Origin: Saccharothrix sp. NRRL B-16348
Lineage (GTDB): Bacteria; Actinomycetota; Actinomycetes; Mycobacteriales; Pseudonocardiaceae
Direction of reading: 5' to 3'
Assembly: GCF_001280085.1 (NCBI RefSeq)
Contig: NZ_LGED01000232.1
Span: 62,001 to 126,000 of the forward strand
DNA length: 64,000 nt
Within the stretch, counting starts at the first letter, position 1. Each line of letters opens with the position of its first letter. Below are positions 12,148 to 32,717 of this stretch, piece after piece. Below the pieces are notes generated by a model, which saw nothing but the letters and a program-made list of their open reading frames with translations, did not search any database and had not been told where the DNA came from. Both the position numbers and the translations under genes were made by a program.

Positions 12148-14241
12148 TCAACTACCGGTGCAGGTGAGCACCGGTGCGCCGGGCGACCCCGAGCCGAGGA
12201 ACCCGAACGTGGTGCTGACGCCCGCGCCGACCGAGCCGTTGTGCGCGGCGTTGCGGGCGGTGACCGTCGAGCCCTGGCTGGTCACGGAGGCGTTCCACGA
12301 CTGGGTGACCGTTTCACCGTTCGTGTAGGTCCACGACACGGTCCAGTTGCTGATCGCCGACGTGCCCGCGGTGACGCGGACCTCGCCCTGGAACCCGCCT
12401 TGCCACTGGTTGACCACCGTGTACGTCGCCGAGCACCGCGCACCGCCGGGCTGCGTGGTCGTAGTCGTAGTGGTGGAGGTCGGGGTCGTCGAGGTCGGCG
12501 TCGTGGTCGACGTCGGCGTGGTCGAACCGCCCCAACCCTGCGCCGAGTCCAACCACGTGACGCGGCGCTGCATCCAGTCCCGCATCGCCTGCACCTGGCC
12601 CTGCCACGTCGGCGCGGTCGGGGTGCGGAAGAAGCCGACCGTCGGCGAGCTGAGGTTGGGCCAGCGCTGGAAGTTGCGCTGCGCGCCGTTGGTCAGCGGC
12701 CGGGAGAGCGCGTCGACCCGCGTCGTCAGCGACGAGTCGGAGAGCAGGCCGCGCCGCAACGACTGCCAGCGCGACTTGAGCTGGTTCACGAACGCCGGGT
12801 CGCGCAGGAGTTGCGCGTGCCAGTCGTTGGCCGTCGGCTGCCGGGTCTGCAGGTGCTGCCAGCCGGAGACCTGGTCGTTCTGGAAGAACCCGCCGACGCC
12901 GAACGTGAGGTCGAAGTCCCACAGCGGCCCGGCGAAGATCTTGCCGTCCCGGTCCTTGTAGAAGTGGGCGCTGCGGAGGTAGGCGTCCATGCCGCGGCTC
13001 AGCTCGTTGACGATCATGTGGTCGATGAACGACGGCACGTCGATGTACTTCTGGTACCCGGTGGCCGGGTCGGCGAAGTTCGGCGCGCGCAGCACGTTGT
13101 GGAACTCCTGGATGTGCCCGCGCAGCCAGTCCCGCTGCTGGGTGTTCAACGGGTCGGGGTCGGCCACCTCGAGGTAGTTCCAGCAGGTGTTCGTCGGCCC
13201 GGTGCACGGCAGCGTCGGCTCTTCGGCCGCCATCCACTCGAACTTGAAGATGTACCCGCCCTGGATCGCGGGCAGGGTCGTGTCGTCCTCGTCCAGACCC
13301 TTGAGGTCCAGCCGGTTCTTCGAGTTCTTGATGGTCTCGACCATCATGTAGACGCCCATGTAGTCGTTGGCGCCGACGGGGGTCGCGTCGGTGTTGAGGT
13401 AGAACTCGACGAACTTGTACCGCGGCGCCTTGAGCCCCATCTCGCGGCCGAGGTCGTAGATGAACGCCTCGCGGATCAGGGCCTTGTCGGTGAACGGGCC
13501 GCGCAGCACCCAGTCGGAGTCGGCGGGCATGCCGAGCACCGGGTAGTCGGCGTCGTCGCCCGCGTTGTCCCAGAACTCCAGCCGGTACGGCGTCTTCTCG
13601 AACGAGGCCGACGACTGGCCGCGCAGCTTGAACCCGGCGCGGGTGGCGACCGCGGGCGTCGAGGCCAACGACGTGGTGCCGCCCGCGGGCGGCTCGAAGA
13701 TCATGGTGGCGCCGTTGAAGTACTCGCGCTGCGGCTTGCCCGCGCCGTAGGAGTCGATCATGACGACCGGCAGGTCGTGCGCCGTGGTGACGTCGCGCGC
13801 GGCGTACATGGCCGTGCCGGGCCGACCGGACGCCGCTTGGTTGACGAAGGCCTGCGCGCGCAGCTGGGTGGTGCGGGTGAACTGCAGCGGTGAGCCTTGG
13901 TACAGCGCCGACTGCGCGTTGGGCAGCTGCCCGTCGGTGGTGTAGCGGATCTGGGCGCCGGCGATCGCGGTGCTCAGCGACACCGACACCTGCCCCTGGA
14001 ACGTGCCGCTGGGCACGGAGAACGTGATGTCGCCGACGAGGTCGTCGGCGGCCGCCGCGGCGGCGATGGCGTCGGCCGCGGCCGTGCCGCCGGTCGATCC
14101 GCCGGTCGATCCGGTGGGGGAGACGGGTTCGGCGCCGGCCGACAACGGGACGAGCAGTCCGGTGAGGAGCACGGCGGCGACCGCGAGCCCCTTGGCCTGG
14201 TGGGTTGCCGCGGCGCCGTTGCTGCGGGGGGTCAAACGCAC
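12148..14241 (-). CDS. secreted CotH-kinase family protein with C-terminal CBM2
   Basis: 697 residues. Signal peptide about 1-38 (AKGLAVAAVLLTGLLVPLSAGA). About 75-155 resembles a chitobiase/FN3-like sandwich (FSVPSGTFQGQVSVSLSTA, IRYTTDGQLP). The CotH domain, about 165-510, includes KLRGQSSASFEKTPYRLEFWD, the ATP-loop-type motif, and FAGPLWDFDLTFG, the metal-binding region. A Thr/Pro-rich linker (about 565-595) leads to a CBM2 (about 600-697) between two Cys. CotH proteins are atypical kinases phosphorylating coat or secreted proteins; here one is exported and tethered to polysaccharide. GTG 14241 has AGGAGG upstream and overlaps the end of the VTC gene by 10 bp. Confidence 0.9.
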   Translation of the reverse strand: MRLTPRSNGAAATHQAKGLAVAAVLLTGLLVPLSAGAEPVSPTGSTGGSTGGTAAADAIAAAAAADDLVGDITFSVPSGTFQGQVSVSLSTAIAGAQIRYTTDGQLPNAQSALYQGSPLQFTRTTQLRAQAFVNQAASGRPGTAMYAARDVTTAHDLPVVMIDSYGAGKPQREYFNGATMIFEPPAGGTTSLASTPAVATRAGFKLRGQSSASFEKTPYRLEFWDNAGDDADYPVLGMPADSDWVLRGPFTDKALIREAFIYDLGREMGLKAPRYKFVEFYLNTDATPVGANDYMGVYMMVETIKNSKNRLDLKGLDEDDTTLPAIQGGYIFKFEWMAAEEPTLPCTGPTNTCWNYLEVADPDPLNTQQRDWLRGHIQEFHNVLRAPNFADPATGYQKYIDVPSFIDHMIVNELSRGMDAYLRSAHFYKDRDGKIFAGPLWDFDLTFGVGGFFQNDQVSGWQHLQTRQPTANDWHAQLLRDPAFVNQLKSRWQSLRRGLLSDSSLTTRVDALSRPLTNGAQRNFQRWPNLSSPTVGFFRTPTAPTWQGQVQAMRDWMQRRVTWLDSAQGWGGSTTPTSTTTPTSTTPTSTTTTTTTQPGGARCSATYTVVNQWQGGFQGEVRVTAGTSAISNWTVSWTYTNGETVTQSWNASVTSQGSTVTARNAAHNGSVGAGVSTTFGFLGSGSPGAPVLTCTGS

Positions 14242-15065
14242 GATGCCTCCTGTTCGGGTCGGTGGGACAGGGTGGTCGGTGCCGGTCCCACCGACGACGT
14301 GGTGCCGCGGAAGTGGCGGCGCAGCGTGCGTCGCCACGGCGCGTCCGGCAGGTCGACGCGGAGCGCGGCCAGACCGGTGGCGTACTTGGAGATCCGCGCG
14401 GGCCGCACCCCCCGTTGCCACAGCATGCGGTCGACCGGCGACGCGGCCGACGCGGTCTTGGTCTCGATCACGGCGGAGCCGGACAACCGCAGCGTGGCCC
14501 CGTCGTGCCGCCAGGACAGCGCGGTGTCGATGGTGACCCGGCTCGCGGATTCCGGCAGCAGCAACGTGGTGCGGTGGTAGTCCGTGACCAGGACCGGGTC
14601 GAGCGCGCCGTCGGCGCCGGGCGCGATCGACTCGCGGGCCAGCGCCTCGTCGACGAAGGCACGCCCCGGGCGCACGGTGTCGCAGTCGCCCGGGTGGTAC
14701 GGCAGCCGGTGCTTGGTGACGCTGCCCCGGGCGCCGCTGATCTTGACCTCCAGCCAGCACTCGGCGGAGTCGAGGTACGTGCGGGTGCGCACCTTGAACC
14801 GGCGCCGCCTGCGGTAGGCCGCGGAGTGGTAGCTGTCCAGCCGAGGCGTGTCGAAGTAGACCGACTCGTAGCGGAACGTGCGCTCACCGCCGATGTCGAG
14901 CACCCGCGCGTGCGGCGCGAGTTGCTCCAGCAGATGGGGCAGCGCTTCGGCAGGCACGACGTACTTGCGGTCGACCCTGGTCTGCAACGCGGCCCGCTCG
15001 ATCAGCTCGGCCAGTCCGACGGGGGTCATCCGCGCGAGGGCGGGCAGGGAGGTCGTCGTGGTCAT
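14232..15065 (-). CDS. VTC-domain (polyphosphate-polymerase-like) protein
   Basis: 277 residues forming a single VTC catalytic domain, the tunnel fold that in yeast Vtc4 makes polyphosphate from ATP. Basic tunnel residues are visible: LQTRVDRKYVVPAEALP, FRYESVYFDTPRL, YRRRRRFKVRTRTYLDS, CWLEVKISGARG, IETKTAS and ISKYATGLAALR. These Arg/Lys and Glu positions match nucleotide and metal ligands of the family. No SPX domain or membrane helix is present, so it is probably cytoplasmic or peripheral. The start overlaps the DUF4956 stop by ATGA and the 3' end overlaps the CotH start. The triad is found together in many bacteria, implying a joint function; biochemical activity of bacterial members is little studied. 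Confidence 0.85.
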   Translation of the reverse strand: MTTTTSLPALARMTPVGLAELIERAALQTRVDRKYVVPAEALPHLLEQLAPHARVLDIGGERTFRYESVYFDTPRLDSYHSAAYRRRRRFKVRTRTYLDSAECWLEVKISGARGSVTKHRLPYHPGDCDTVRPGRAFVDEALARESIAPGADGALDPVLVTDYHRTTLLLPESASRVTIDTALSWRHDGATLRLSGSAVIETKTASAASPVDRMLWQRGVRPARISKYATGLAALRVDLPDAPWRRTLRRHFRGTTSSVGPAPTTLSHRPEQEASCV

Positions 15066-16043: not shown

Positions 16044-17048
16044 ATGGACCCGGTCACGTCGAGGGTGAGGGGGACGGTCATCGAGACGGCGAAGGTCCTC
16101 GTGGTCGACCCGATGGACGGCACGGCGGTCGACCGCCTGCGGCGCGTGGCGGACGTGCTCGTGCGCCCGCGGCCGTCCGCCGCCGAGCTGCCGGACCTCG
16201 TGGCGGACGCCGACGTGATCGTCCTGCGCAGCGGTGTGCGCCTCACCGCGTCCGTCCTGGGCCGCGCCTCGAAGCTCAAGGTCGTCGTGCGGGCGGGCAC
16301 CGGCGTGGACAACATCGACCTGGAGGCCGCCTGGCGTGCCGGGGTGCGCGTGTTCACCGTCCCCGGCGCCTCCGCCACCGCGGTCGCCGAACTCGCGATC
16401 GGGCTGACGCTCGCGGTGTCGCGCCGGATCGCCCTCGCCGACCGGCACGTGCGCGCCGGTCGGTGGCCGAAGGCGGAGCTGGTGGGCCACGAGTTGAGCG
16501 GCAAGGACTTCGGGCTCGTGGGGTTCGGCGAGATCGGCGCCCGCGTCGCGCGGATGCTGGCCGGGTTCTCCCCGCGCCTGCGCACGGCGATCCGGCTGCC
16601 GACGCCGTCGCGGCGTGCGGCGATCGCCCGGCAGGGCGTCGAGGTGGTTGACCTGCCGACGCTGCTGCGCGAGTCCGACGTCGTCTGCCTCGCCGTGCCG
16701 TTGACCGACCTCACGCGCCGCCTGATCGGCGCGGACGAGCTGCGTGCCATGAGGCGGCACGCCTTCCTGGTCAACGTGTCGCGCGGCGGTGTGGTGGACG
16801 AGGACGCCCTGGCGGCGGCCCTGCGCGAGGGCACGATCGCGGGCGCCGGCCTCGACGTGCACGAGTCCGAGGGCGGCGTCAGCCCGTTCGCCGGGCTGGA
16901 CAACGTCGTCCTCACCCCGCACATCGGCGCGATGTCGGTGGACGCGCAACGCCGCATCGGGGACGTCGTGGTCGACACGGTCATCGGCGCCCTCGGTGGT
17001 GGGTCGCCGATCCCGGCGGCGGCCCGGGAGCAACGGCCTGACCGCTGA
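16044..17048 (+). CDS. D-2-hydroxyacid dehydrogenase, candidate phosphonopyruvate reductase
   Basis: 334-residue SerA-like dehydrogenase. The catalytic set is complete: Arg247 (NVSRGG), Glu274 (DVHESEG) and His293 (LTPHIGA); the Rossmann motif is GFGEIG at 160-165. The acidic residue normally ending beta-2 and selecting NAD is absent: the region reads SPRLRTAIRLPTPSRR, suggesting NADPH. There is no ACT domain, so a regulated serine-pathway role is unlikely. In valinophos biosynthesis a dedicated dehydrogenase reduces phosphonopyruvate to phosphonolactate; neighbouring kinase, ArgC and ADH homologues make that the best reading. ATG 16044 lacks a strong ribosome site; GTG near 16065 is an alternative. 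Confidence 0.82.
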   Translation: MDPVTSRVRGTVIETAKVLVVDPMDGTAVDRLRRVADVLVRPRPSAAELPDLVADADVIVLRSGVRLTASVLGRASKLKVVVRAGTGVDNIDLEAAWRAGVRVFTVPGASATAVAELAIGLTLAVSRRIALADRHVRAGRWPKAELVGHELSGKDFGLVGFGEIGARVARMLAGFSPRLRTAIRLPTPSRRAAIARQGVEVVDLPTLLRESDVVCLAVPLTDLTRRLIGADELRAMRRHAFLVNVSRGGVVDEDALAAALREGTIAGAGLDVHESEGGVSPFAGLDNVVLTPHIGAMSVDAQRRIGDVVVDTVIGALGGGSPIPAAAREQRPDR

Positions 17049-17158
17049 TCACCGCAGCACGCACGGCCGGTGCGACGAACTTCCGCCGAGCCCGCCGCGC
17101 GGGCCGCTAGCCTCGGGTCCGAGCACCGCACTCCTGGCCCGGCCGAGGGGGGACGCCC

Positions 17159-18274
17159 GTGCGCACACCCACGTCCGCGGGTCGGCGACCGGCCGGCGGC
17201 TTGACCGCCGGGGTCGTCGGCGCGAGCGGGCACGCGGGCGGCGAGCTGTGCCGACTGCTGCTCGGCCACCCCGAGGTGGCGACGATCCTGCCCACCTCGC
17301 GCGGCGACCGCGCGTTCGACGCCGTGCACCCCAACCTCCTCGGCGCCGGGCTGGCGTTCCTCGACGAGGGTGGGCTCCGGGACCGGGCGGACTCGCTGGA
17401 CGTGGTCTTCTTCTGCACGCCGACCGGTGAGGCCATGCGCCAGGCGCGGCACTACCTCGAGCGGGACGTGCTGGTCGTCGACCTGAGCGCCGACTTCCGC
17501 TTCCGCGACCCCACCGCGTTCCAGCAGGCGCACGGACGCGCGCACACCGATCCCGAGCTGCTCTCCGAAGCCGTCTACGGCCTGACCGAGCTGCGCCGGG
17601 AGGAGATCGCGAACGCCCGCCTGATCGCCAACCCCGGCTGCTACGCGATCACCGCGGTCCTCGCGCTCACGCCGTTGCTGCGCACCGGGTGGTGGCGTCG
17701 GGACGCGCCGGTGTCGGTCCACGCGGTCAACGGCAGCACCGGCGCGGGCAGCGAGCCCAAGACCGCCGTGATGCACGCCGAGATGACCGCGTCCATGCTC
17801 TCGTACCAGCTGTCGGGCCACCGGCACGCCCCCGAGCTGGAGGCGTTCTTCGCGGCGGAGACCGGGGAACCGGTCGTGGTCGACCTGAACACCGCGCACG
17901 GCGACTTCGCCCGGGGGATCCACCTGCAGGCCAACGTCCACCTCACCGAGGGGGTGTCCCGGGAGGACCTGCTCGCCCGGTACGTCGACGCCTACGGCGC
18001 GGACCACGACGGGGAGCACTTCGTCCTGGTGAACACCCGGCCGAAGGTCGGCGCGCGTGACGAGAAGCAGTACGACCTGTACCCGCGGCTCGGGAGCGTG
18101 GTCGGGTCGAACTTCTGCCACCTCGGCGTCGACGTCGACCCGGAGCGGCGGATCGCGAAGGTCGTCGCGGTGACCGACAACCTGGTCAAGGGCGCCGCCG
18201 GGTCGGCCGTGCAGAACATGAACGCCGCCCTCGGGCTGCCCGAGACGACCGGGCTGCGGGCCTATGCGCTGTGA
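17159..18274 (+). CDS. ArgC-like N-acetyl-gamma-glutamyl-phosphate reductase homologue, candidate phosphonolactoyl-phosphate reductase
   Basis: 371 residues with the ArgC fold: NADP-binding AGVVGASGHAGGELCRLL (about 17-34), catalytic Cys161 in IANPGCYAITA, and the substrate loop NGSTGAGSEP. ArgC reduces an acyl phosphate to an aldehyde. No other arginine gene is nearby; instead the gene overlaps a phosphoglycerate-kinase homologue by 11 bp. In the valinophos/phosphonothrixin route a kinase/reductase pair described as resembling glycolysis and arginine biosynthesis converts phosphonolactate to phosphonolactaldehyde, matching this pair. The GTG start has GAGGGGGGA upstream. Substrate assignment is inferred from context. 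Confidence 0.85.
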   Translation: MRTPTSAGRRPAGGLTAGVVGASGHAGGELCRLLLGHPEVATILPTSRGDRAFDAVHPNLLGAGLAFLDEGGLRDRADSLDVVFFCTPTGEAMRQARHYLERDVLVVDLSADFRFRDPTAFQQAHGRAHTDPELLSEAVYGLTELRREEIANARLIANPGCYAITAVLALTPLLRTGWWRRDAPVSVHAVNGSTGAGSEPKTAVMHAEMTASMLSYQLSGHRHAPELEAFFAAETGEPVVVDLNTAHGDFARGIHLQANVHLTEGVSREDLLARYVDAYGADHDGEHFVLVNTRPKVGARDEKQYDLYPRLGSVVGSNFCHLGVDVDPERRIAKVVAVTDNLVKGAAGSAVQNMNAALGLPETTGLRAYAL

Positions 18275-19424
18275 CGGCGTGCCGCTGCTGTCCGATGCGG
18301 ACATCCGGCCGGGTGACCGGTGGATCTACTCGGCGGGCTTCAACGTGCGCCCGGACCTCGCCGCCACGGCCAGGATCGACGAGGAGCTGCCGGACCTCCG
18401 CCGGATCCTGGGCGCCGGCGGGCGGCTCGCGATCCTGTCGCACCAGGGATCGCACCGCGACCGCTCCGCCACCTCCCTCGACTTCGTGGCGAAGTACCTG
18501 TCCGACCGGCTCGGCACGGTGGTGGAGCACCACCCGGGCAACGACACCGCGGAGGCCGTCGCCCGTGCGCGGCGACTGCGGCCGGGCGAGGCGGTGCTGT
18601 TCGGCAACACCCGCGAGCACGCGGGGGAGGAGGGCAACGACCCCGGGCTGGCGCGGCGGTTCGCGGCGCTCGGCGACGCGGTGGCCGTCGGCGGCTTCTC
18701 GAAGGCGCACCGGGCGCACGCGTCCAACGTCGGCCTGCTCGACCACCTGCCCGGCTACCTGGCCGACAGCGTGGTGGCGCAGCTCGCGCTGCTCGCGCCG
18801 TGGTCCGGCGCCTCGACGCGGTACTCGGTCGCCGTGCTCGGCGGTGTGAAGCGCGAGAAGACGACGCCGGGGCTGGACGCGCTGGCACGGTGCTACGACC
18901 TGGTGGTGCCCGGCGGCGCGGTGCTCAACGGCCTGCTGCGCGCGACGGGGCACCGGATCGGCGCGTCAGCGCCCGGCGACGCGAGCGTGGCGGAACGGGT
19001 GCTGGCCCGGGACAACCGCGCCGAGATCCATTTGCCGCGCGAGGTCGTGGTGGCCGATCGCGACCTGACCCGCTCCGCCGTCGTGCCGGTGCGCGACGGC
19101 GTGCCGCCGGGGTGGTCGATCGTGGACTTCGTGCCGCGACCGTGGCTGCACGACCGGCTCGACCGCCTGGCCGCGGGTGGTCGTGCGCTGCTCGCGGGCA
19201 CACCGTGCCTCTACGCGCACGGCTTTCGCCGAAGCGCCGACGTGCTGCTCGCCGCGTTCCGCGCCCCGTCGGTGGACGCGTTGCTGCTCGGCGGCGACAC
19301 GGTCGCCGAACTGCCGTGGCACGGCCCGGCGTCGACCGGTGGCGGCGCCGCCTTGCACTTCCTCGGCCACGGGACGCTGCCCGTCCTCGACGCGCTCCGC
19401 CGGACCGGGGGTGTGACGCGGTGA
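18264..19424 (+). CDS. phosphoglycerate-kinase homologue, candidate phosphonolactate kinase
   Basis: 386 residues aligned by motif to PGK but clearly diverged: FNVRPD (DFNVP in PGK), SHQGSHRD (SHLGRP), VLFGNTREHAGEEGND (LLENVRFH..EE.ND), FSKAHRAHAS (FGTAHRAHAS), VLGGVKREKT (GGAKvsdK) and LLGGDTV (GGGDS). Substrate-side basic residues are partly kept and partly changed, as expected for an enzyme acting on a 3-phosphonate instead of 3-phosphoglycerate. It would phosphorylate the carboxylate of phosphonolactate with ATP, feeding the ArgC-like reductase. ATG 18264 lies within the ArgC gene end; the stop overlaps the GTG of the iron ADH. A housekeeping PGK would be expected in a gap-pgk-tpi operon instead. 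Confidence 0.85.
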   Translation: MRCDGVPLLSDADIRPGDRWIYSAGFNVRPDLAATARIDEELPDLRRILGAGGRLAILSHQGSHRDRSATSLDFVAKYLSDRLGTVVEHHPGNDTAEAVARARRLRPGEAVLFGNTREHAGEEGNDPGLARRFAALGDAVAVGGFSKAHRAHASNVGLLDHLPGYLADSVVAQLALLAPWSGASTRYSVAVLGGVKREKTTPGLDALARCYDLVVPGGAVLNGLLRATGHRIGASAPGDASVAERVLARDNRAEIHLPREVVVADRDLTRSAVVPVRDGVPPGWSIVDFVPRPWLHDRLDRLAAGGRALLAGTPCLYAHGFRRSADVLLAAFRAPSVDALLLGGDTVAELPWHGPASTGGGAALHFLGHGTLPVLDALRRTGGVTR

Positions 19425-20548
19425 TCTTCGACGTGTCCCTGCCGACCGCGGTGGTGTTCGGCGCCGGGCGGTTCGCCGAGCTGGGGGCCAGGACCAGGGC
19501 GCTGGGCGGTCGCGCGCTGCTGGTGTGCGGCCGGTCGGCGGCGCGTGAGCACGGGCTGCTCGCCGCCGCGGCGAGCTCGTTGGCGGGCGCGGGTGTCGCG
19601 GTGACGGTCTTCGACCAGGTCTCCGAAGGGCCGATGGACACCGAGGTCGACGCCGCCGTCGGGGCGGGCCTGGCGGCTTCCTGCGACGTGGTCGTCGGGC
19701 TGGGCGGTGGCAGCGCGATCGACGCCGCGAAGGCCGCCGCCGTCGGGCTGCGCGCCGGGCCGGTCGGACCGCTGGTCGGCGCACCCGCGCTCGACCGCGA
19801 CCCGCGTGCCGTGCCGGTGGTGGCGGTGCCGACGGTCGCGGGCAGCGGCGCCGAGGTGACCAAGGGCGCGATCATCACCGACACGTCCCGCCGGCTGCGG
19901 GCGGGCATCCGGGGCGACGACCTGTTCCCGCGCGTGGCCCTGGTCGACCCGGACCTGCTGGTGACGGTGCCCGCGCACGTCGCGGTGGCGTCCGGGTTCG
20001 ACGCGTTCACCCACCTGGTCGAGGGTTGCGTCGCCCGCCGGTCGGACGACGCGGTGCGGTGGGCCGCCGAACGGGCCCTGCCGCTGCTCGTGCGCCGGCT
20101 GCCCGAGATCGCGGCCGGGGCACTGGGGGCGGAGCAACGCGCGGACCTCGCGCTGGCGTCGCTGCTGGGCGGCTTCGCCGTGGCCAACGCCGGCACCTGC
20201 CTGCCCCACCGGCTCCAGCAGGCGATGGGCTCGGTGCCGAGGGTCCGGGTGTCGCACGGCCGCGGCCTGGCGCTGCTCTACCCCGCGTGGCTGGCGCACG
20301 CCACCGTCCACGCGGGGGAGCGGTTCGCCGCCGTCGCGCGCCTGATGGGCGTCGACGACGTGGCCGACGGGGTGGACCGGTTGACGACCGCGATCGGCGT
20401 CGGCGCGCCGCCGGACTCGTTCGGCTTCACGTCGGACGACCTACCGGCGTTGGTGGGCGGCGTCACCGGGAATGTCGACAACGATCCCATCCCGAACGTG
20501 GGGGAAACGGTCATCCGCGACATCTACCTGGCCGCATTTCGGCGGTGA
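19421..20548 (+). CDS. iron-containing (group III) alcohol dehydrogenase, candidate phosphonolactaldehyde reductase
   Basis: 375 residues. GLGGGSAIDAAKA is the NAD(P) diphosphate motif, and the metal ligands are all present: Asp194 and His198 (GFDAFTHLVEG), His263 (LPHRLQQAMG) and His279 (SHGRGLALLYP). Relatives in phosphonate clusters (PhpC, FomC, DhpG) reduce phosphonoacetaldehyde; here, after the kinase/ArgC pair and without a phosphonopyruvate decarboxylase, reduction of phosphonolactaldehyde to 2,3-dihydroxypropylphosphonate is more likely. GTG 19421 overlaps the kinase stop (GTGA). Last gene of this four-gene group; the patatin gene starts 89 bp later. Confidence 0.87.
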   Translation: MIFDVSLPTAVVFGAGRFAELGARTRALGGRALLVCGRSAAREHGLLAAAASSLAGAGVAVTVFDQVSEGPMDTEVDAAVGAGLAASCDVVVGLGGGSAIDAAKAAAVGLRAGPVGPLVGAPALDRDPRAVPVVAVPTVAGSGAEVTKGAIITDTSRRLRAGIRGDDLFPRVALVDPDLLVTVPAHVAVASGFDAFTHLVEGCVARRSDDAVRWAAERALPLLVRRLPEIAAGALGAEQRADLALASLLGGFAVANAGTCLPHRLQQAMGSVPRVRVSHGRGLALLYPAWLAHATVHAGERFAAVARLMGVDDVADGVDRLTTAIGVGAPPDSFGFTSDDLPALVGGVTGNVDNDPIPNVGETVIRDIYLAAFRR

Positions 20549-20636
20549 TCGCACAAAAGGGCTCCTTGCCGCCCTTGGCGGTCGCGCACTACCATCAGCC
20601 ATTCGCTATTCGTCACGGCGCCCAACGAGGAGCGGG

Positions 20637-21665
20637 ATGTCCGCCGACAGCACGCCCGACCCGTCCGTCACCCACCCGGTGCTGAGAATTCTTCACGAAC
20701 GTCGGGTGGGCAACGGCAAACCCGGTCAGCGCACGGATCCGCACAAGGTCGGTCTGGCCGTCGAGGGTGGCGGTATGCGCGGTGTGGTGTCCGCCGCCAT
20801 GCTGGCCGCCCTGGAGGAATTCGGCATCGCCGATTGTTTCGACGCGGTGTACGGCGCATCGGCCGGTGCGATCAGCGGCGCTTATTTCCTCGCGGGCGAG
20901 ACGTGGAAATCGCTGCCGCTGTACTACCAGGACCTGCCCGCCCGGGGGCTCATCGACCTCAAGCGGGTGCTGCGCGGCAAGTCGATCCTCGACCTCGACC
21001 TGCTCTTCGACGACGTGATGGAGCACGTCCGCCCGCTCGACTACGAGAAGGTGCTGAGCGGGCCCGTGCCGCTCGGGGTGGCCGTCACGCTGGTCGACCG
21101 GATGGAGCCCCTGCTGGTCACCTCCTTCGAGTCGAAGGCGGACCTCAAGGAGGCGCTGCGCGCGGGCTCGTGGCGTCCGGTGCTGGTCAGGGGCACGGCC
21201 GAGTACCGGGGGCAGCGGGCGGTCGACGGGTCGATGCTGGCCGCGCTGCCCTACACCCTCGCGGTCGACGACGGCTGCACGCACGTGCTGTCGCTGAGCA
21301 CGTTCCCCACCGGCGGCTACTCGACCAAGCCTTCGCTGCTCGGCAAGCTCACCGCGCGGCAGCTCGACCGGGCGCGGAAAGGGCTGGGCGCGCTGTACCT
21401 GGACCACGCGCGGAAGAAGTACGACGGCCTGCGCTGGCTGGCCTCGCAACGGGACGCGCCGAACGCCGATCCGCCGTTCGTGCTCGACCTCGCGCCGGCC
21501 AGTGGCGAGGACACCATCAGCCGGTGGGAAACCCGGCTGGGTCCGCTGGTCCACGCGGTCGAGCGGTCTTACGAAATGGTGTACACGACATTCCGGATGG
21601 GCGCGGGCGGTGAACGCGCTTCGGTGCGCGCGGTGCCGCGCTGGACCGTCGTTCCCGCGGATTGA
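20637..21665 (+). CDS. patatin-like phospholipase (YjjU-like)
   Basis: 342 residues. Patatin features: oxyanion loop VEGGGMRGVV (about 43-52), nucleophile Ser in GASAGA (about 77-82), and catalytic-dyad Asp in AVDGSML (about 200). It would hydrolyse acyl chains of lipids in the cytoplasm or at the inner membrane; there is no signal peptide. ATG 20637 is preceded by GAGGAG. It lies between the phosphonate genes and a convergent NACHT NTPase gene with a 9-bp gap. Patatins occur both as housekeeping lipases and as membrane-damaging effectors of antiphage systems; the pairing raises but does not prove the second. Confidence 0.85.
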   Translation: MSADSTPDPSVTHPVLRILHERRVGNGKPGQRTDPHKVGLAVEGGGMRGVVSAAMLAALEEFGIADCFDAVYGASAGAISGAYFLAGETWKSLPLYYQDLPARGLIDLKRVLRGKSILDLDLLFDDVMEHVRPLDYEKVLSGPVPLGVAVTLVDRMEPLLVTSFESKADLKEALRAGSWRPVLVRGTAEYRGQRAVDGSMLAALPYTLAVDDGCTHVLSLSTFPTGGYSTKPSLLGKLTARQLDRARKGLGALYLDHARKKYDGLRWLASQRDAPNADPPFVLDLAPASGEDTISRWETRLGPLVHAVERSYEMVYTTFRMGAGGERASVRAVPRWTVVPAD

Positions 21666-21674
21666 CGGTCGACC

Positions 21675-24263
21675 TCACGGATTGACGGCCGACTCGGAAC
21701 GGTGCTCGCGGGCCAGCAATCGCCCGATCTCGTCGTGCCGGAATCGGTAGGCCGCGCCGTCCTGCCGCAGGATCTCCAGGTTCTTCGCCCGTTCGAGGCA
21801 GGCGATCAACCGCAAAGGGCTCCGCCTCGCCGCCCACAGCAATGCGGAGGCGATGACGTACGAGCACCAAGGCGAGAAGCACAAGGCGAACACCAGTCCG
21901 ATGCAGCCGCCCAGGGCCGCGCCGGACTGCCACGAGACATTCGCCGCGTACTCGGCCAGCAGGCCGCTCACCCCGAGGCGCGCCGCGGCCAGGTGGAAGG
22001 CCCACATCACGATCGCCGAGGCGACGGTGGGCAGCACGAGGTAGGTCATCGCGACCGTGCGGGCCGAGCGGAACGTGCTGACCGGGGTCGAGGCGACCGG
22101 TTTCGGCGTCGGCTCGCTCATCCACCTCACGTACCCGCCCGCGAGGCCGACCGCCAGCCCCGCGGTGAGGCCGTAGACGAGGCCGACCACGGCCCCGTAC
22201 TCCAGACCGCTCCGCAGACCGCCGACGGCCCCGTAGCGCAGCGCGCCGATGAGCGCGCCGCCCAAGCCGATGCCCAGCCCGCTCACCACGCCCAGCGCCA
22301 GGTACGGCAGCAGTCGGCGTTCCCGCCGGGCGGTGGCGACGTCGAGCGGCACGGGCTGGCGGGTCGGCCGGGCCACCTCGAACCGGCGCAGCAGGACGCC
22401 CGCGATGAACACGCTGAGCCCGATGCCGAGCGTCGTCGTCAGCCCCCGCACCAGCCCCGCGTGGGCGTCCTTCACCGTCCACTCGTGGGCGGCGGTGACG
22501 AACGCGGTGATCACGCCCGCGACGAGGCTGCTCTTGAGCACCGCCGCGGTGGAGCGCTCGATGCTGCGCGCGGCGGCGACGGCCACGCCCATCGCGACAC
22601 CCAGTTCGGCGGCCACGAAGACGGCGTCCAAGGGGCGCAACAGGGTCAGCGCGCCCGCGAGCACGCTGAGCCCGGTGGTCACGCCCGCCAACGCGCCGCA
22701 CCGCACCCCGCCCAGCGCGCCGCGGGTCAGGCCGATCGTCATGGCCAGGACCAGGCCGACCGTGATGCCCCGCTTGAGCCCTTCCGGGAAGCCGCTCGTC
22801 AACAGGTAGACGAAGCCCGCCAGCACGCCCGCGACGACCGACCACCAGGTCGCGGGCACGAACTCGTAGACCCGCCACCACTCGAACCTCGGCCTGCCGT
22901 CCGCCGCGACCAGGCGCAGCCAGCGGCGCGTGGGGTCCGCCCGCGGCCCGCTGCCGCGCGGCCCGGACCCGCGCGGCGCGGGTTCCGGGTCGAGCTTGGC
23001 CAGCAGGTCCTCGATCAGGAAGGCCTTGATCCCCGACTCGTCGAGGTGGTCGACGCGCCGCACGAAATCGGCCGGCCGCGACTCGTCGTCGCCGTACTTG
23101 CTCCGCACGAGGGAGGCGTAAAGCGGCACGGTCATGACCTCTTTGACCGGTGACGGGCCGGGCTGTTCGAGCAACCGGAACAGCGATCGCCACTTCTCCG
23201 GGCGGGTGGACAGGACCCGTGAACCGGGTTCGACGGCGTCCGCGTCGTCACTCGCGCCCGGGGAAACCCGATAAATGCGGAAAAGCCTGGCCCACCTCGC
23301 CTCGGGGCGCGACTCGGCCGTGCTCGGCGTGGCGTCGTAACCGTCCTCCGCCTCGCTCAGGAAGTCGATCGCGTCCTCGACCGCCAGCGGTCGCAAAACG
23401 ACCTCGGTGACGTTCATCGCGCGCAAGCGCTTCTTCACGGCGCTCGCGTAGTCCTCCGTGCGGCACGTGAGGACGAGCGAGGTCGCCTTCGGCAGGAAAT
23501 CGTGGATCTGGTCCACGACGGCGCCGCGGTCGTGCTCGTCCACCTCGTCGAGACCGTCCAGGACGAATGCCAGTCGCTTCGTCCGGATGAGGCGCACGAT
23601 GACGTTCGCACCGTAAATCGGCGTGTTCTTCAAGAACGTGTAGTGGTCGCCCAGGGTGCGCACGACCCACGATCCGAAGCTTTCCGAAGCCGGGCTCCAG
23701 CCGGACAGGCGGAGCACGACCGGAACCGCGTCGGAACGCGACCGCGCGCGCAACAGAGCGAGCGCCAGGAACAACCCGAGAACCGATTTCCCGGACGCGG
23801 GCGCGCCGACGACGACGAACCGGCGGCGACCGGTCGGCGAGGACAGGTAGAGGTCGAGGATCGCCCGCTCGTACTCGCTGAGGGGCTCCGCGACCTCCTC
23901 GTCGGGTGGCCGCCGAGCGGCGGGAACGGCCGGTCCGCGGCGTCCGCGGCCGGACACCTCCCACCTGATCTTGGCGGGCACGGTGTCGCGCAGGCCCTGC
24001 AGTCGGACCTCGTCCTCCAACTGCTCGACGACGGCCTCGGCCAGCTCGCGCACCGCCAGGTCGACCTGGTCGACCCGCGCCGCCTTAGCCATGCCGGGCA
24101 AGCTGTTCTGCAGCACCCAGAACAACGCGGACAGCAGCGCCACAATCGCCGCGACGATGCTCGACACCTCGTCGGTCTTGCTGGTTCCGGCGAACACCCA
24201 CGTGCCGATCAGAACCGCCAGGGCGCAACCCAGCACCGCCGCGGCGATCCGGTTGCGCACCAT
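21675..24263 (-). CDS. membrane-anchored NACHT-domain STAND NTPase
   Basis: 862 residues. Two N-terminal hydrophobic helices (about 5-26 and 35-55), then a NACHT module: Walker A GAPASGKSVLG (about 153-163), RLAFVLDGLDEVDEHD with Walker B and the extra acidic residues typical of NACHT (about 229-244), and a sensor-like LVLTCRTEDYA. A winged-helix-like segment follows (about 280-430). The C-terminal 350 residues hold about ten Gly/Ala-rich membrane helices and end in a short basic tail (FRHDEIGRLLAREH). NACHT proteins in bacteria are often immune sensors; the C-terminal membrane domain would be the effector or sensor. ATG 24263 has no clear ribosome site. Confidence 0.85.
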   Translation of the reverse strand: MVRNRIAAAVLGCALAVLIGTWVFAGTSKTDEVSSIVAAIVALLSALFWVLQNSLPGMAKAARVDQVDLAVRELAEAVVEQLEDEVRLQGLRDTVPAKIRWEVSGRGRRGPAVPAARRPPDEEVAEPLSEYERAILDLYLSSPTGRRRFVVVGAPASGKSVLGLFLALALLRARSRSDAVPVVLRLSGWSPASESFGSWVVRTLGDHYTFLKNTPIYGANVIVRLIRTKRLAFVLDGLDEVDEHDRGAVVDQIHDFLPKATSLVLTCRTEDYASAVKKRLRAMNVTEVVLRPLAVEDAIDFLSEAEDGYDATPSTAESRPEARWARLFRIYRVSPGASDDADAVEPGSRVLSTRPEKWRSLFRLLEQPGPSPVKEVMTVPLYASLVRSKYGDDESRPADFVRRVDHLDESGIKAFLIEDLLAKLDPEPAPRGSGPRGSGPRADPTRRWLRLVAADGRPRFEWWRVYEFVPATWWSVVAGVLAGFVYLLTSGFPEGLKRGITVGLVLAMTIGLTRGALGGVRCGALAGVTTGLSVLAGALTLLRPLDAVFVAAELGVAMGVAVAAARSIERSTAAVLKSSLVAGVITAFVTAAHEWTVKDAHAGLVRGLTTTLGIGLSVFIAGVLLRRFEVARPTRQPVPLDVATARRERRLLPYLALGVVSGLGIGLGGALIGALRYGAVGGLRSGLEYGAVVGLVYGLTAGLAVGLAGGYVRWMSEPTPKPVASTPVSTFRSARTVAMTYLVLPTVASAIVMWAFHLAAARLGVSGLLAEYAANVSWQSGAALGGCIGLVFALCFSPWCSYVIASALLWAARRSPLRLIACLERAKNLEILRQDGAAYRFRHDEIGRLLAREHRSESAVNP

Positions 24264-24290
24264 GGACCGAGAGTAGTCGCGAACGGCCTG

Positions 24291-24314
24291 TCGTTCGATC
24301 CTCCGATCGAACGA
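24291..24314. promoter_or_regulatory. Perfect inverted repeat upstream of the NACHT gene
   Basis: TCGTTCGATC at 24291-24300 and its exact complement GATCGAACGA at 24305-24314, separated by CTCC, lie 28-51 bp upstream of the NACHT start codon, where a promoter-overlapping operator would sit. No adjacent regulator gene explains it. Confidence 0.5.
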
Positions 24315-24697
24315 GAGGAGCCGCGGCCAGGGCCCGGCGGCGTGAGAGGTTTTCGTGATCCACCACGCCTCCCGGAAATCGATTCGAATTCGTCCGGTGA
24401 TCGTGCGGAATTCCTGTGACCGCTCTTATGGCCGCTCGGAAAGAATTTACCCGATAGGCGTGTTGTTGGTTTAGCGTTACCGGCCAAGCCAACTTTCGGC
24501 CCAACATCCTTGACGGCCCGGTCGGGCTGTGCTGACACTAGGTGCCGCTTTGTCGTCCTGGCGCAGAACCGACCGACGCGATGTCGCCGCCCCGACTTCC
24601 GATGTCGTCCCTCATTCGGCCCCAACGCGACGGCCAAGGCTTCCGGCTCGAATCCAGGTCGGTGCTCGAAACGGACACCAGGAGGGTCGATCACATC
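24315..24697. other. 383-bp intergenic stretch before the HppE-like gene
   Basis: No gene is supported. Base composition drops around 24400-24480 (CTTATGG, AAAGAATTTACCCGATAGG, GGTTTAGCG), the most AT-rich part nearby and the likely promoter of the HppE-like gene. An imperfect repeat GTTGGTTT (24465-24472) and AAGCCAAC (24486-24493) could be an operator. The stretch from 24530 to 24690 is in frame with the HppE-like gene but shows no family-like sequence. Confidence 0.45.
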
Positions 24698-25288
24698 ATG
24701 GGCGCAGATCTCAACACCGAAGTGGGAAACCGGATCAGGCAGCGCCGCGCTCTGGTGAAAATGGACCAGGCGGCCTTGGCGAGCAGGTTGGACGTGCCCG
24801 TCTCGGTCGTGCAGGGCTGGGAGTCCGGCTCCGGCGCGCAGCCCCTCGACCTCACCGGCCTGGCCGATGTCGCCACCGCGCTGAGCACGAGCATCGCCGA
24901 CCTGGTGCCCGCACCCGAGGACGACCTGACCGACGGCGTCCGGCTCCAGCTGCCCGACGAGGACTCCAGCATCGTCGGCAGCCGCGGCGGCGTGGACTAC
25001 TACGTCTACCGCTGCCTGGTCCGGAGCCCGTCGGTGCCGATGCTCATCCCCCTCGTGGTGGACGTCCTGGTCGACGACCGGGAGCGCGCCGAGTTCAACG
25101 GCGGCCACGCCGGGCACGAGTTCATCTACGTCATGGAGGGCTCGGTCCACATGCAGTGGGGCGACGAGGCCGCGCCGAAGACCGCGGACCTGCCCACCGG
25201 GGCGAGCATCTACATCAGCCCGTACGTCTCGCACACGTTCACCGCGCTGGACGGGCGCAACGCGCGCCTGCTCGCCGTCAACTTCTGA
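24698..25288 (+). CDS. HppE-like mononuclear non-haem iron oxidase (HTH + cupin), fosfomycin epoxidase family
   Basis: 196 residues, against 198 for S. wedmorensis HppE. The N-terminal HTH (about 8-65) keeps the VKMD.AALAS segment with Lys21, matching catalytic Lys23 of HppE. The middle VDYYVY.CLVR keeps the substrate-contacting tyrosines. The cupin has the iron triad His137, Glu141 and His179, the same spacing as HppE 138/142/180, in FNGGHAGHEFIYVMEG and PYVSHTFTA, and ends LLAVNF. HppE closes an epoxide from (S)-2-hydroxypropylphosphonate, or oxidises the R isomer to a ketone. Here the likely substrate is DHPPA or a derivative. ATG 24698 is 11 bases after AGGAGGG. Full conservation argues against a mere regulator. 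Confidence 0.9.
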   Translation: MGADLNTEVGNRIRQRRALVKMDQAALASRLDVPVSVVQGWESGSGAQPLDLTGLADVATALSTSIADLVPAPEDDLTDGVRLQLPDEDSSIVGSRGGVDYYVYRCLVRSPSVPMLIPLVVDVLVDDRERAEFNGGHAGHEFIYVMEGSVHMQWGDEAAPKTADLPTGASIYISPYVSHTFTALDGRNARLLAVNF

Positions 25289-25300
25289 GCACGCGACAGG

Positions 25301-25329
25301 ACGGGCCGCCGACGCGCTCGGCGGCCCGT
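25301..25329 (+). terminator. Hairpin between the HppE-like gene and pepM
   Basis: Perfect 12-base arms ACGGGCCGCCGA (25301-25312) and TCGGCGGCCCGT (25318-25329) with a 5-base loop, starting 12 bases after the stop codon. It lacks a T-tract, so it may attenuate rather than fully stop transcription into pepM. Confidence 0.6.
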
Positions 25330-25375
25330 TCGGTCGCACCACGCCGGTTCCGGCCCGCACGACGAGGAGCGCCGA

Positions 25376-26236
25376 GTGATCCGAGGGTTGCACCCGTCCT
25401 TCCGCGACGTCCTGGCGCGCGGCGGACTCGTGAAGGTCGCCGGCGCGCACAACGCGCTCGGCGCGGTGCTGGCCGAGAGGGCCGGTTTCCACGCGGTGTG
25501 GTCGTCCAGCTTCGAGGTCTCGGCGGCCCGGTGCCTGCCGGACGCGAGCCTGCTGACGATGACCGACTACTTGGAGGCCGCCGTGCACATGCAGCGGGCC
25601 GTGGGCGTCCCCGTCGTGGCCGACTGCGACTCGGGCTTCGGCAACGAGCTGAACTTCGCGCACCTGGTGCACGAGTACGAGGCGTCCGGGATCACCGCGG
25701 TCTGCGTCGAGGACAAGTTGTTCCCCAAGATGAACAGCTTCGTCGGCGAGGGTCAGCGCCTGGTCGACGCCGAGGTCTTCGGGCGGCGGATCGCGGTGGC
25801 GAAGCAGGCGCAGCGCGGCGAGGACTTCCTGGTGATCGCCAGGACGGAGGCGTTCATCGCGGGTCTCGGGCTGGAGGAGGCACTGCGGCGCTGCCACACC
25901 TACGCCGACGCGGGGGCCGACGCCGTGCTCGTGCACTCCAAGCAGAGCACCGAGGTCGAGGTCGCGGCGTTCCTCGCGCGCTGGGCGCGCGACGTCCCCG
26001 TGGCGGTGGTGCCGACGACGTACCCGGCGTGGCACGCCGAGGACGCGCACCGCGCCGGCGCCGCGATCGTCATCTACGCCAACCAGGGGCTGAGGGCGCA
26101 GGTCCTCGCCCTGCGCCACACCTTCGGCGAGATCGTCCGCGCCGGCCACACCGCCGGGGTCGAGTCGGACATCGCCACCTTGGACGACATCTTCACCCTG
26201 CAAGGGCTGGAGGCCTGGCGGAAGCTGTCGCGCTGA
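25376..26236 (+). CDS. pepM: phosphoenolpyruvate mutase (PEP mutase)
   Basis: 286-residue isocitrate-lyase-superfamily enzyme forming the C-P bond by rearranging phosphoenolpyruvate to phosphonopyruvate. The PEP-mutase signature EDKLFPKMNS (residues 112-121) distinguishes it from methylisocitrate and oxaloacetate relatives, which carry EDQ/KRCGH. Also present: WSSSFEVSA (substrate loop), ADCDSGFGN (metal-binding Asp), IARTEAFIAG (Arg contacting the carboxylate) and LVHSK. GTG 25376 is preceded by GAGGAG. It follows the HppE-like gene by 87 bp. The reaction is unfavourable and needs a coupling enzyme; no phosphonopyruvate decarboxylase is in the window, so the D-2-hydroxyacid dehydrogenase at 16044 is the likely partner. 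Confidence 0.95.
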   Translation: MIRGLHPSFRDVLARGGLVKVAGAHNALGAVLAERAGFHAVWSSSFEVSAARCLPDASLLTMTDYLEAAVHMQRAVGVPVVADCDSGFGNELNFAHLVHEYEASGITAVCVEDKLFPKMNSFVGEGQRLVDAEVFGRRIAVAKQAQRGEDFLVIARTEAFIAGLGLEEALRRCHTYADAGADAVLVHSKQSTEVEVAAFLARWARDVPVAVVPTTYPAWHAEDAHRAGAAIVIYANQGLRAQVLALRHTFGEIVRAGHTAGVESDIATLDDIFTLQGLEAWRKLSR

Positions 26237-31145: not shown

Positions 31146-32717
31146 ATGAGGTTTAACCCCTTTGTCGTCGCCACCGCAGTGGTCGCGGCACTCGCATTAC
31201 CGGGCGCCATGGCGACCGCCGCGACCACGCACCACGAGGCCGAAAGCGCGCCCGCGGTGTGCGCGGGCACGATCGACAGCAACTGGTCCGGCTACTCGGG
31301 CACGGGCTTCTGCAACGCGGACAACGCCGTCGGCGCCTCCGCCCAGTTCACCGTCACCGCGCAAGCCGCGGGCGCCGCGACGGTCCTGGTCCGGTTCGCC
31401 AACGGCGGCACGTCCGCCCGGACCGCCGACCTCGTGGTCAACGGCTCCACGGTGCAGTCGGTGTCGTTCGAGGCGACCGGCGCGTGGTCGACGTGGGTCT
31501 CGAAGACCCTGTCCGTCACGGTGCCGTCGGGCGCCACCACGATCCGGCTCAGCCCCACCACCTCGTCGGGCCTGCCGAACGTCGACTACCTGGACTTCAC
31601 CCAGGACGGCACGCCGCCGCCCGCCGACTCGCTGTACGTGGCCACCGACGGCAACGACAGCAACCCCGGCACCCTGGCCGCGCCGCTGCGCACCATCCAG
31701 CGCGGCGTCGACCTGGCCCAGCCGGGCTACACGATCCACGTCCGCGGCGGCACGTACGCGCCGAGCACCAACATCCAGCTGCTCAAGAACGGCACCGCGA
31801 GCCAGCCGATCACGTTGCGCAACCACAACGGCGAGCACGTGGTGATCGACGGCGAGAACATGCCGCACACGCCGGGCGCCGTCGGCTCCAGCATCCCGCG
31901 CCCGGAACGCGGCGCCGTGCACATCGAGGGCGACCACTGGCGGCTGATCGGCCTGGAGATCGTCCACGGCCCGTACGGCGTGTTCGGCCTGGACACCAAC
32001 AACTCCGTCTTCGACCGGCTCGTCACGCGCGACAACTACGAGTCCGGCCTGCACCTCCAGGGCTCGTCGAGCAACAACCAGATCCTCAACCTGGACGCCT
32101 ACGGCAACCGCGACCCGCGCAAGAACGGCGAGAGCGCCGACGGCCTGGCCATCAAGGAGGGCTCCGGCTCCGGCAACGTCGTGCGCGGCGCCCGCCTGTG
32201 GAACAACTCCGACGACGGCCTCGACTACTGGATGTTCTCCTCGCCGATCCTGCTGGAGAACAGCCTGGCGTGGGGCAACGGCTTCAACCGCTGGAACCTG
32301 CCCGACTTCACCGGCGACGGCAACGGGTTCAAGCTCGGCGGCAACGGCGTCGCCGCCAACCACACCGTGCGCAACACGATGACGTGGGACAACGCGGCGG
32401 GCGGCTTCGTCGACAACAACAACCCCGGCCAGCACCGGATCGAGCGCAGCACCGCGTGGGACAACCCGAAGACCGGGTTCCAGTTCGACCGCTCCGACAG
32501 CACGCTGACCAAGAACCTGGCGGCGGCCAACGGCTCGAACGTCTCGCTGGGCTCGAACTCCAGCGGCAGCGGCAACTCGTGGGACATCGGCGGCTCGTGG
32601 TCGTTCGCGAGCACGAACCCGGGCACGATCACGGGTCCGCGCACCGCCGACGGCTCGATCCCGTCCTCCACCTTCCTGCGCCCGAGCAACGGCGCGGACG
32701 TGGGAGCGCGCTTCTAG
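31146..32717 (+). CDS. secreted pectate lyase, N-terminal CBM35-like module and PL9 parallel beta-helix
   Basis: 523 residues. Signal peptide about 1-26 (VVATAVVAALALPGAMATA). About 28-152 is a CBM35/CBM6-type sandwich (HEAESA at the start, VDYLDF at the end). From about 160 (LYVATDGNDSNPGTLAAPLRTIQRGVDLA) the right-handed beta-helix begins; ESADGLAIKEGSGSGNVVRGARLWNNSDDGLDYW and GDGNGFKLGGNG are PL9-type core segments with the Asp/Lys residues expected for calcium binding and proton abstraction. It would cleave polygalacturonate by beta-elimination outside the cell. ATG 31146 has AAGGGAG upstream. A CebR-like operator upstream and a terminator downstream make it monocistronic. Confidence 0.9.
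   Translation: MRFNPFVVATAVVAALALPGAMATAATTHHEAESAPAVCAGTIDSNWSGYSGTGFCNADNAVGASAQFTVTAQAAGAATVLVRFANGGTSARTADLVVNGSTVQSVSFEATGAWSTWVSKTLSVTVPSGATTIRLSPTTSSGLPNVDYLDFTQDGTPPPADSLYVATDGNDSNPGTLAAPLRTIQRGVDLAQPGYTIHVRGGTYAPSTNIQLLKNGTASQPITLRNHNGEHVVIDGENMPHTPGAVGSSIPRPERGAVHIEGDHWRLIGLEIVHGPYGVFGLDTNNSVFDRLVTRDNYESGLHLQGSSSNNQILNLDAYGNRDPRKNGESADGLAIKEGSGSGNVVRGARLWNNSDDGLDYWMFSSPILLENSLAWGNGFNRWNLPDFTGDGNGFKLGGNGVAANHTVRNTMTWDNAAGGFVDNNNPGQHRIERSTAWDNPKTGFQFDRSDSTLTKNLAAANGSNVSLGSNSSGSGNSWDIGGSWSFASTNPGTITGPRTADGSIPSSTFLRPSNGADVGARF

Follow-up and report, generated by a model that had tools for sequence, protein, structure and literature searches.

We analysed a 64,000-nucleotide stretch of the 10.9-Mb genome of Saccharothrix sp. 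NRRL B-16348 (contig NZ_LGED01000232.1, positions 62,001 to 126,000; hereafter, the window) and identified a phosphonate locus in which genes for a predicted route to 2,3-dihydroxypropylphosphonate (DHPPA) are combined with a gene for a homolog of HppE, the (S)-2-hydroxypropylphosphonate epoxidase (Table 1). All six pathway genes named in an initial annotation of this DNA were found in place, and their families were confirmed by open reading frames and domain matches. The window was annotated between about 11 and 34 kb, the remainder was subjected to gene calling and searched with queries from the fosfomycin (fom) cluster, and 17 window proteins were scanned for domains.

Table 1. Features of the phosphonate locus, with positions in the window
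Feature	Position	Strand	Matches and scores
D-2-hydroxyacid dehydrogenase homolog (2HADH)	16044..17048	+	PF02826 182 bits, PF00389 95.5 bits
ArgC-type acyl-phosphate reductase	17159..18274	+	PF22698/PF01118, Semialdhyde_dh; TIGR01850 argC
Phosphoglycerate kinase (PGK) homolog	18264..19424	+	PF00162 140.6 bits
Iron-containing alcohol dehydrogenase (FeADH)	19421..20548	+	PF00465 149.8 bits
HppE ((S)-2-hydroxypropylphosphonate epoxidase) homolog, 196 amino acids	24698..25288	+	Cupin_2 and HTH_3; 1zz6 195 bits
Intergenic hairpin (HppE-PepM), possibly a terminator or attenuator	25293..25337	+	RNA fold z-score -2.27
Phosphoenolpyruvate mutase (PepM)	25376..26236	+	PF13714 173 bits; best PDB match 5unc PEP phosphomutase, 289 bits

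The six genes do not form a contiguous operon: the 2HADH, ArgC, PGK and FeADH genes occupy positions 16044-20548 and the HppE and PepM genes positions 24698-26236, with genes for a patatin and, on the opposite strand, a NACHT protein (20472-24263) in between. The split arrangement is identical in Saccharothrix luteola (locus L005) and hence is not an assembly artefact; a genome of the same genus (G004) bears the cluster at a position that agrees with S. luteola. Within the four-gene set, the ArgC and PGK genes overlap by 11 bases and the PGK and FeADH genes by 4 bases, a pattern expected of a co-translated operon. Downstream of HppE and ahead of PepM, the hairpin folded better than most shuffled sequences, with 6 of 200 shuffles reaching an equal or better fold, and its palindrome can be made out in S. 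luteola as well.

The PepM protein carries the signature EDKLFPKMNS, as initially described, where the phosphonopyruvate hydrolase used for comparison has EDKTFPKDTS; it has no counterpart of the N-terminal portion fused in Fom1, its match starting at Fom1 residue 150. According to a paper that refers to work on valinophos (PMC12871164), phosphonopyruvate can be drawn on to phosphonolactate by a 2-hydroxyacid dehydrogenase. The window 2HADH, the predicted phosphonopyruvate reductase that would yield phosphonolactate, keeps the R/E/H motifs, is 54% identical to the Streptomonospora copy and has phosphoglycerate dehydrogenase as its best curated match (260 bits, below the cut-off). The PGK homolog, a predicted phosphonolactate kinase, keeps the LGGxK (LGGVK), STGGGA and HRAHAS motifs; it shares 28% identity with the other PGK encoded in this genome and 55% with that of Saccharothrix sp. 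ST-888 (P0123), which is described as a producer of phosphonothrixin (PMC12723261). The ArgC-like protein, predicted to be the reductase making phosphonolactaldehyde, keeps NPGCY and HRHAPE and exceeds the cut-off of the argC equivalog model TIGR01850 (307 bits), so that the sequence alone allows an ArgC call, whereas the gene context decides otherwise. The FeADH, predicted to reduce phosphonolactaldehyde to DHPPA, keeps the D/H/H/H metal motif, and its NCBIfam matches include the phosphonate-type TIGR03405 (150 bits, below the cut-off). In all five proteins, every catalytic motif that was sought is present.

The window PGK matched 12 of 346 genomes of the family at 1e-50, including the window's own and G004, and solely the window's own among 394 genomes of the class. 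The other 10 loci (L061-L070) were examined in about 20 kb each, and all 10 contain the 2HADH, ArgC, PGK and FeADH genes together, with PepM within the examined stretch in eight (not L063 and L069). The DHPPA pathway of the valinophos and phosphonothrixin type is defined by PepM, 2HADH, PGK-like kinase, ArgC-like reductase and alcohol dehydrogenase in a single locus, and all five are present in the window. The DHPPA route proposed in the initial annotation is thus backed by conserved gene neighbourhoods among related loci, and this makes the prediction that the locus encodes it well supported. By the same gene context, together with the divergence of the two PGKs, we rejected a glycolytic or arginine-biosynthetic role of the kinase/ArgC pair, an option that the initial annotation had raised. 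All 10 loci further carry a zinc alcohol dehydrogenase (ZnADH) gene between 2HADH and ArgC, and none of them shows HppE. Neither the window locus nor that of S. luteola has this ZnADH; its best match is 33% identical in the window's genome, 49% in Streptomonospora sp. PA3 and 60% in G005. Among curated models, it comes closest to those of secondary-alcohol dehydrogenases (threonine 3-dehydrogenase, for example), without reaching any of their cut-offs. Some of these loci have features of their own: the PGK match is in two pieces or frames in L069 and L070, a possible frameshift or sequencing error; a complete enolase gene, possibly a self-resistance or target copy, lies near the cluster of L066 (12963-14288; G516); and a transketolase-like protein, as expected for a phosphonothrixin-like pathway, is encoded near that of L062 (4719-6050; G005).

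With the Streptomyces fom clusters, the window shares PepM, an iron alcohol dehydrogenase and HppE, but it lacks the phosphonopyruvate decarboxylase (Ppd/Fom2) and the methyltransferase Fom3, and has the 2HADH-ArgC-PGK set instead. HppE is described as catalysing the last step of the fosfomycin pathway, which is preceded by Fom3 in Streptomyces (PMC8158854). With two decarboxylase queries that match the control loci L006, L007 and L031, no Ppd/Fom2 was detected in the window, in L005, in the two PA3 loci (L029 and L030) or in L061-L070, in agreement with the absence of a decarboxylase noted initially. The Fom3 search returned full-length matches in both fosfomycin producers and none in the PA3 genome; the window's genome (a single match, of 24 bits) and S. 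luteola gave no more than partial matches, of 22-28 bits. The 2-hydroxyacid dehydrogenase, PGK-like kinase and ArgC-like reductase are shared with the valinophos (vlp) and phosphonothrixin (ftx) systems, in which they reportedly serve the steps of the DHPPA pathway; the window differs from these systems in the presence of HppE and the absence of the ZnADH of the other examined loci. The ftx-type ZnADH is the likely ketone-forming enzyme, and no cluster-type copy of it is present in the window; nor did any of the 17 scanned window proteins contain a thiamine pyrophosphate (TPP) or ATP-grasp domain, TPP enzymes being said to define ftx. As for the Pseudomonas-type fosfomycin (psf) route, which uses a homocitrate-synthase-like phosphonomethylmalate synthase, no such domain was found among the scanned window and PA3 proteins, whole genomes not having been searched for one. 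A second contig of S. luteola (L031) encodes a PepM 51% identical to that of the window, along with a TPP decarboxylase, a class-V aminotransferase and a PhyH-type oxygenase, and is a different phosphonate cluster. In literature searches on DHPPA, HppE, phosphonothrixin, valinophos and fosfomycin, no title or abstract opening described an HppE-bearing DHPPA cluster, although a mention in print is possible.

The HppE homolog aligned nearly full length, across both the helix-turn-helix (HTH) and cupin domains, with the characterised Streptomyces wedmorensis enzyme (1zz6; query 61-248 against chain 11-198), at 51-52% identity. Ten positions with roles in the active site and substrate binding (K23, R97, Y102, Y103, Y105, N135, H138, E142, H180 and N197 in S. 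wedmorensis numbering) are conserved in 14 of 14 aligned relatives. The 2-His-1-Glu iron triad is accordingly intact, as initially annotated, and the substrate-binding residues are kept; the window-type and fom-type enzymes differ at many positions, none of them among these ten. The open reading frame start at 24542 is unlikely, because frame-breaking indels relative to S. luteola fall upstream of ATG 24698, the probable start, which follows AGGAGG. In S. luteola, the HppE frame is open without a stop, and the short annotation there is a matter of start-site choice.

Relatives of this protein are rare, with at least 10 proteins found by single-sequence search and at least 22 by profile search, 16 of the 22 being 38% or more identical over 89-100% of the query; these counts are lower bounds, as the protein and contig scans depend on words or patterns. 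They include a Micromonospora cathayae protein (P0005) and metagenomic proteins. Among 396 genomes of the phylum, HppE was matched at 1e-20 solely in the window's own, and the genome scan yielded at least four loci. Two of these are the clusters for fosfomycin in S. wedmorensis and Streptomyces viridochromogenes, the third is that of S. luteola, which has the entire cluster of the window, and the fourth is that of Streptomonospora sp. PA3. Two further candidates were rejected. In G036, the HppE-like protein shares 28% identity, and the 19.5 kb examined contain no PepM match. That of G034 (L027) adjoins an iron alcohol dehydrogenase-like protein and a PepM 61% identical to the window's; PGK and ArgC gave no match at this locus and 2HADH and FeADH gave only weak ones, and the protein, at 457 amino acids, has the size of the two-cupin HEPD/MPnS enzymes.

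The cluster of Streptomonospora sp. PA3 contains all six gene types of the window within about 14 kb, with products 45-58% identical to those of the window. ZnADH, ArgC, PGK, HppE, FomA and FomB genes follow one another on one strand, with PepM, 2HADH, FeADH and a second FomA homolog farther along. Compared with the window, PA3 thus adds ZnADH, two FomA homologs, FomB, a FomD-like protein, an aminotransferase, a glycosyltransferase and further genes. The FomA homolog next to HppE matches the solved fosfomycin kinase FomA with 285 bits, and FomB exceeds the NCBIfam cut-off for FomB phosphonate monophosphate kinase (488.5 versus 400), whereas the FomD-like protein, although 48% identical to FomD, reaches 75 bits against a cut-off of 320. 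In fosfomycin producers, FomA and FomB are described as inactivating the antibiotic by two successive phosphorylations (PMC4790336). With HppE followed by FomA and FomB and with Fom3 missing, the simplest reading is that the PA3 HppE acts on an intermediate of the DHPPA pathway and that its product, which FomA and FomB would have to neutralise, is an epoxide. The initial proposal that HppE acts on an intermediate of the DHPPA pathway is strengthened by this second cluster without Fom3, its product chemistry being a prediction.

FomA alone was discarded as proof of an epoxide, given that the DHPPA-type loci L067 and L070 carry a FomA-type kinase without HppE, and FomB would be the stronger sign. 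Besides this kinase, L067, L070 and the PA3 loci share NTP_transf_5, HAD, glycosyltransferase, class-V aminotransferase and FAD-NAD-binding genes, and this shared cluster type, with or without HppE, looks undescribed.

An aspartate in place of the fosfomycin-sensitive cysteine of MurA is described as conferring insensitivity to fosfomycin (PMC4790336, PMC5652432). In the window's genome and in S. luteola, the best MurA has Asp at this position (LPGGD), and in PA3 and both fosfomycin producers, all three of which carry FomA and FomB, it has Cys. The Asp residue is not an adaptation to the product but lineage-wide, being present in the best MurA of 27 of 28 relatives (a count that covers the window's genome; the exception, G066, has Cys); therefore, as an inherited trait it is no evidence for the product. 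Second copies also exist: the window's genome encodes a MurA-like protein with Cys (L054; 308 bits, below the cut-off), and two further second copies among the relatives have Asp and Cys, respectively. Self-protection would then rely on FomA and FomB in Streptomonospora, with its Cys MurA, and, in the lineage of the window, on the inherited MurA with Asp, which can explain why the window has no need for FomA and FomB.

In the pathway that we propose, PEP mutase would convert phosphoenolpyruvate (PEP) to phosphonopyruvate, which 2HADH would reduce to phosphonolactate; the PGK-like kinase would phosphorylate the latter on its carboxylate, the ArgC-like reductase would turn the phosphorylated intermediate into phosphonolactaldehyde, and FeADH would reduce this aldehyde to DHPPA. 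In the last step, HppE would close the C1-C2 epoxide of DHPPA, giving the hydroxymethyl analog of fosfomycin. We consider the chances evenly balanced that the six enzymes turn PEP into DHPPA, from which HppE then forms a hydroxymethyl-fosfomycin-type epoxide. Somewhat more tentative is the broader proposal that a methyltransferase-free, six-enzyme route leads from PEP to hydroxymethyl-fosfomycin ((1,2-epoxy-3-hydroxypropyl)phosphonate), a new antibiotic of the fosfomycin class, and that actinobacteria of two or more distant lineages possess it, protected by FomA-FomB where MurA has Cys or by an inherited Asp MurA.

The initial annotation left open whether HppE yields an epoxide or a ketone. 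The presence of FomA and FomB behind the PA3 HppE, and of a ZnADH that is the likelier ketone-forming enzyme elsewhere, would tilt the choice to the epoxide. The stereochemistry of DHPPA decides between the two products. HppE converts (R)-2-hydroxypropylphosphonate (HPP) to a ketone. The (S)-enantiomer is described as being converted to the epoxide (PMC8158854). The family name of the window dehydrogenase, its phosphoglycerate dehydrogenase match and the use of a PGK homolog suggest D-specificity. The parent enzyme PGK acts on D-3-phosphoglycerate. In Cahn-Ingold-Prelog assignments worked by hand, D-specific reduction gives D-phosphonolactate, which is (S), and from it (S)-DHPPA, which has the spatial arrangement of (S)-HPP with CH3 replaced by CH2OH.

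Several observations weigh against an epoxide formed from DHPPA by this locus. Both PA3 FomA homologs score below the NCBIfam FomA cut-off (291 and 228 versus 550), FomA-type kinases occur without HppE in the two loci noted above, and neither the window's genome nor S. luteola has a FomA match. The best NCBIfam model of PepM is PEP mutase, with 276 bits against a cut-off of 320. The hairpin suggests that HppE and PepM are perhaps not co-transcribed. In a small tree in which several forks are unresolved, the window and PA3 HppE proteins fall in separate parts. HppE also diverges faster than most neighbouring genes, being 88% identical between the window and S. luteola compared with 97-98.5% for the other five pathway proteins. 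Its ratio of nonsynonymous to synonymous substitution rates (dN/dS) is 0.48, and those of the other nine compared genes span 0.14-0.51; dS itself is raised in the NACHT gene and HppE (0.12-0.13) and, beyond PepM, in the FBP gene (0.20), so that local recombination is possible. Finally, the (R)-specific ketone reaction of HppE has to be set beside the (R)-DHPPA with which valinophos was reportedly described.

In a rival explanation, unlikely in our view, the DHPPA route is the same and HppE oxidises the C2 alcohol to 3-hydroxy-2-oxopropylphosphonate, replacing ZnADH. The ketone reaction with (R)-HPP and the (R)-DHPPA of valinophos would favour it. It would also account for a ZnADH in all 10 related loci and PA3 that is missing from the window and S. 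luteola, and for the kinship of this enzyme to secondary-alcohol dehydrogenases (below cut-off, as noted). The missing gene can be read either way, as HppE replacing ZnADH or as the ketone branch being unused. PA3, in contrast, has both ZnADH and HppE, the latter followed by FomA and FomB, which speaks for two different reactions and fits an epoxide, and no ketone-using enzyme is visible among the 17 scanned window proteins.

Quite improbable is the use by HppE of another substrate, either an intermediate such as phosphonolactate or a downstream product of enzymes outside the cluster. The substrate is not readable from sequence, and the many differences between window-type and fom-type HppE would suit this reading, as would the PA3 tailoring genes (FomD-like protein, aminotransferase and glycosyltransferase among them). 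Yet, with FeADH in the cluster, the four-gene set would naturally end at DHPPA, and the window shows no further tailoring enzyme at 16-26 kb. Less probable still is that HppE is not an oxidase here but a decaying gene or a cupin-type regulator. Its HTH domain, the automatic naming of relatives as cupin or XRE regulator, its fast evolution and the short S. luteola annotation all point that way; against this, the aligned S. wedmorensis epoxidase has the HTH domain as well, the ten active-site residues are kept in every aligned relative, S. luteola included, the gene has no stops and a dN/dS below 1, and the short annotation gives way to a longer open frame.

Other genes in and around the locus include the patatin-like phospholipase and NACHT NTPase genes, which are convergent and also present in S. 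luteola. Compared with PADLOC models, the patatin has a weak match to phospholipase effectors, and the NACHT protein has none. The cluster is flanked on one side by a gene for a CotH-kinase protein with a cellulose-binding domain (12148-14760) and on the other by one for a beta-helix polysaccharide-lyase-like protein with carbohydrate-binding modules (31146-32717).

If HppE indeed forms the epoxide from DHPPA, two separately known phosphonate pathways would be joined in one, and a new epoxide antibiotic would be predicted, made without the B12 radical S-adenosylmethionine methylation of fosfomycin biosynthesis and bearing a free hydroxyl that could serve as a chemical handle. HppE would gain a second natural substrate, and the stereochemical rule of epoxide or ketone formation would become testable in a natural setting. 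The self-protection proposed for the window's lineage would further suggest that a naturally insensitive target may replace dedicated resistance genes in a producer.

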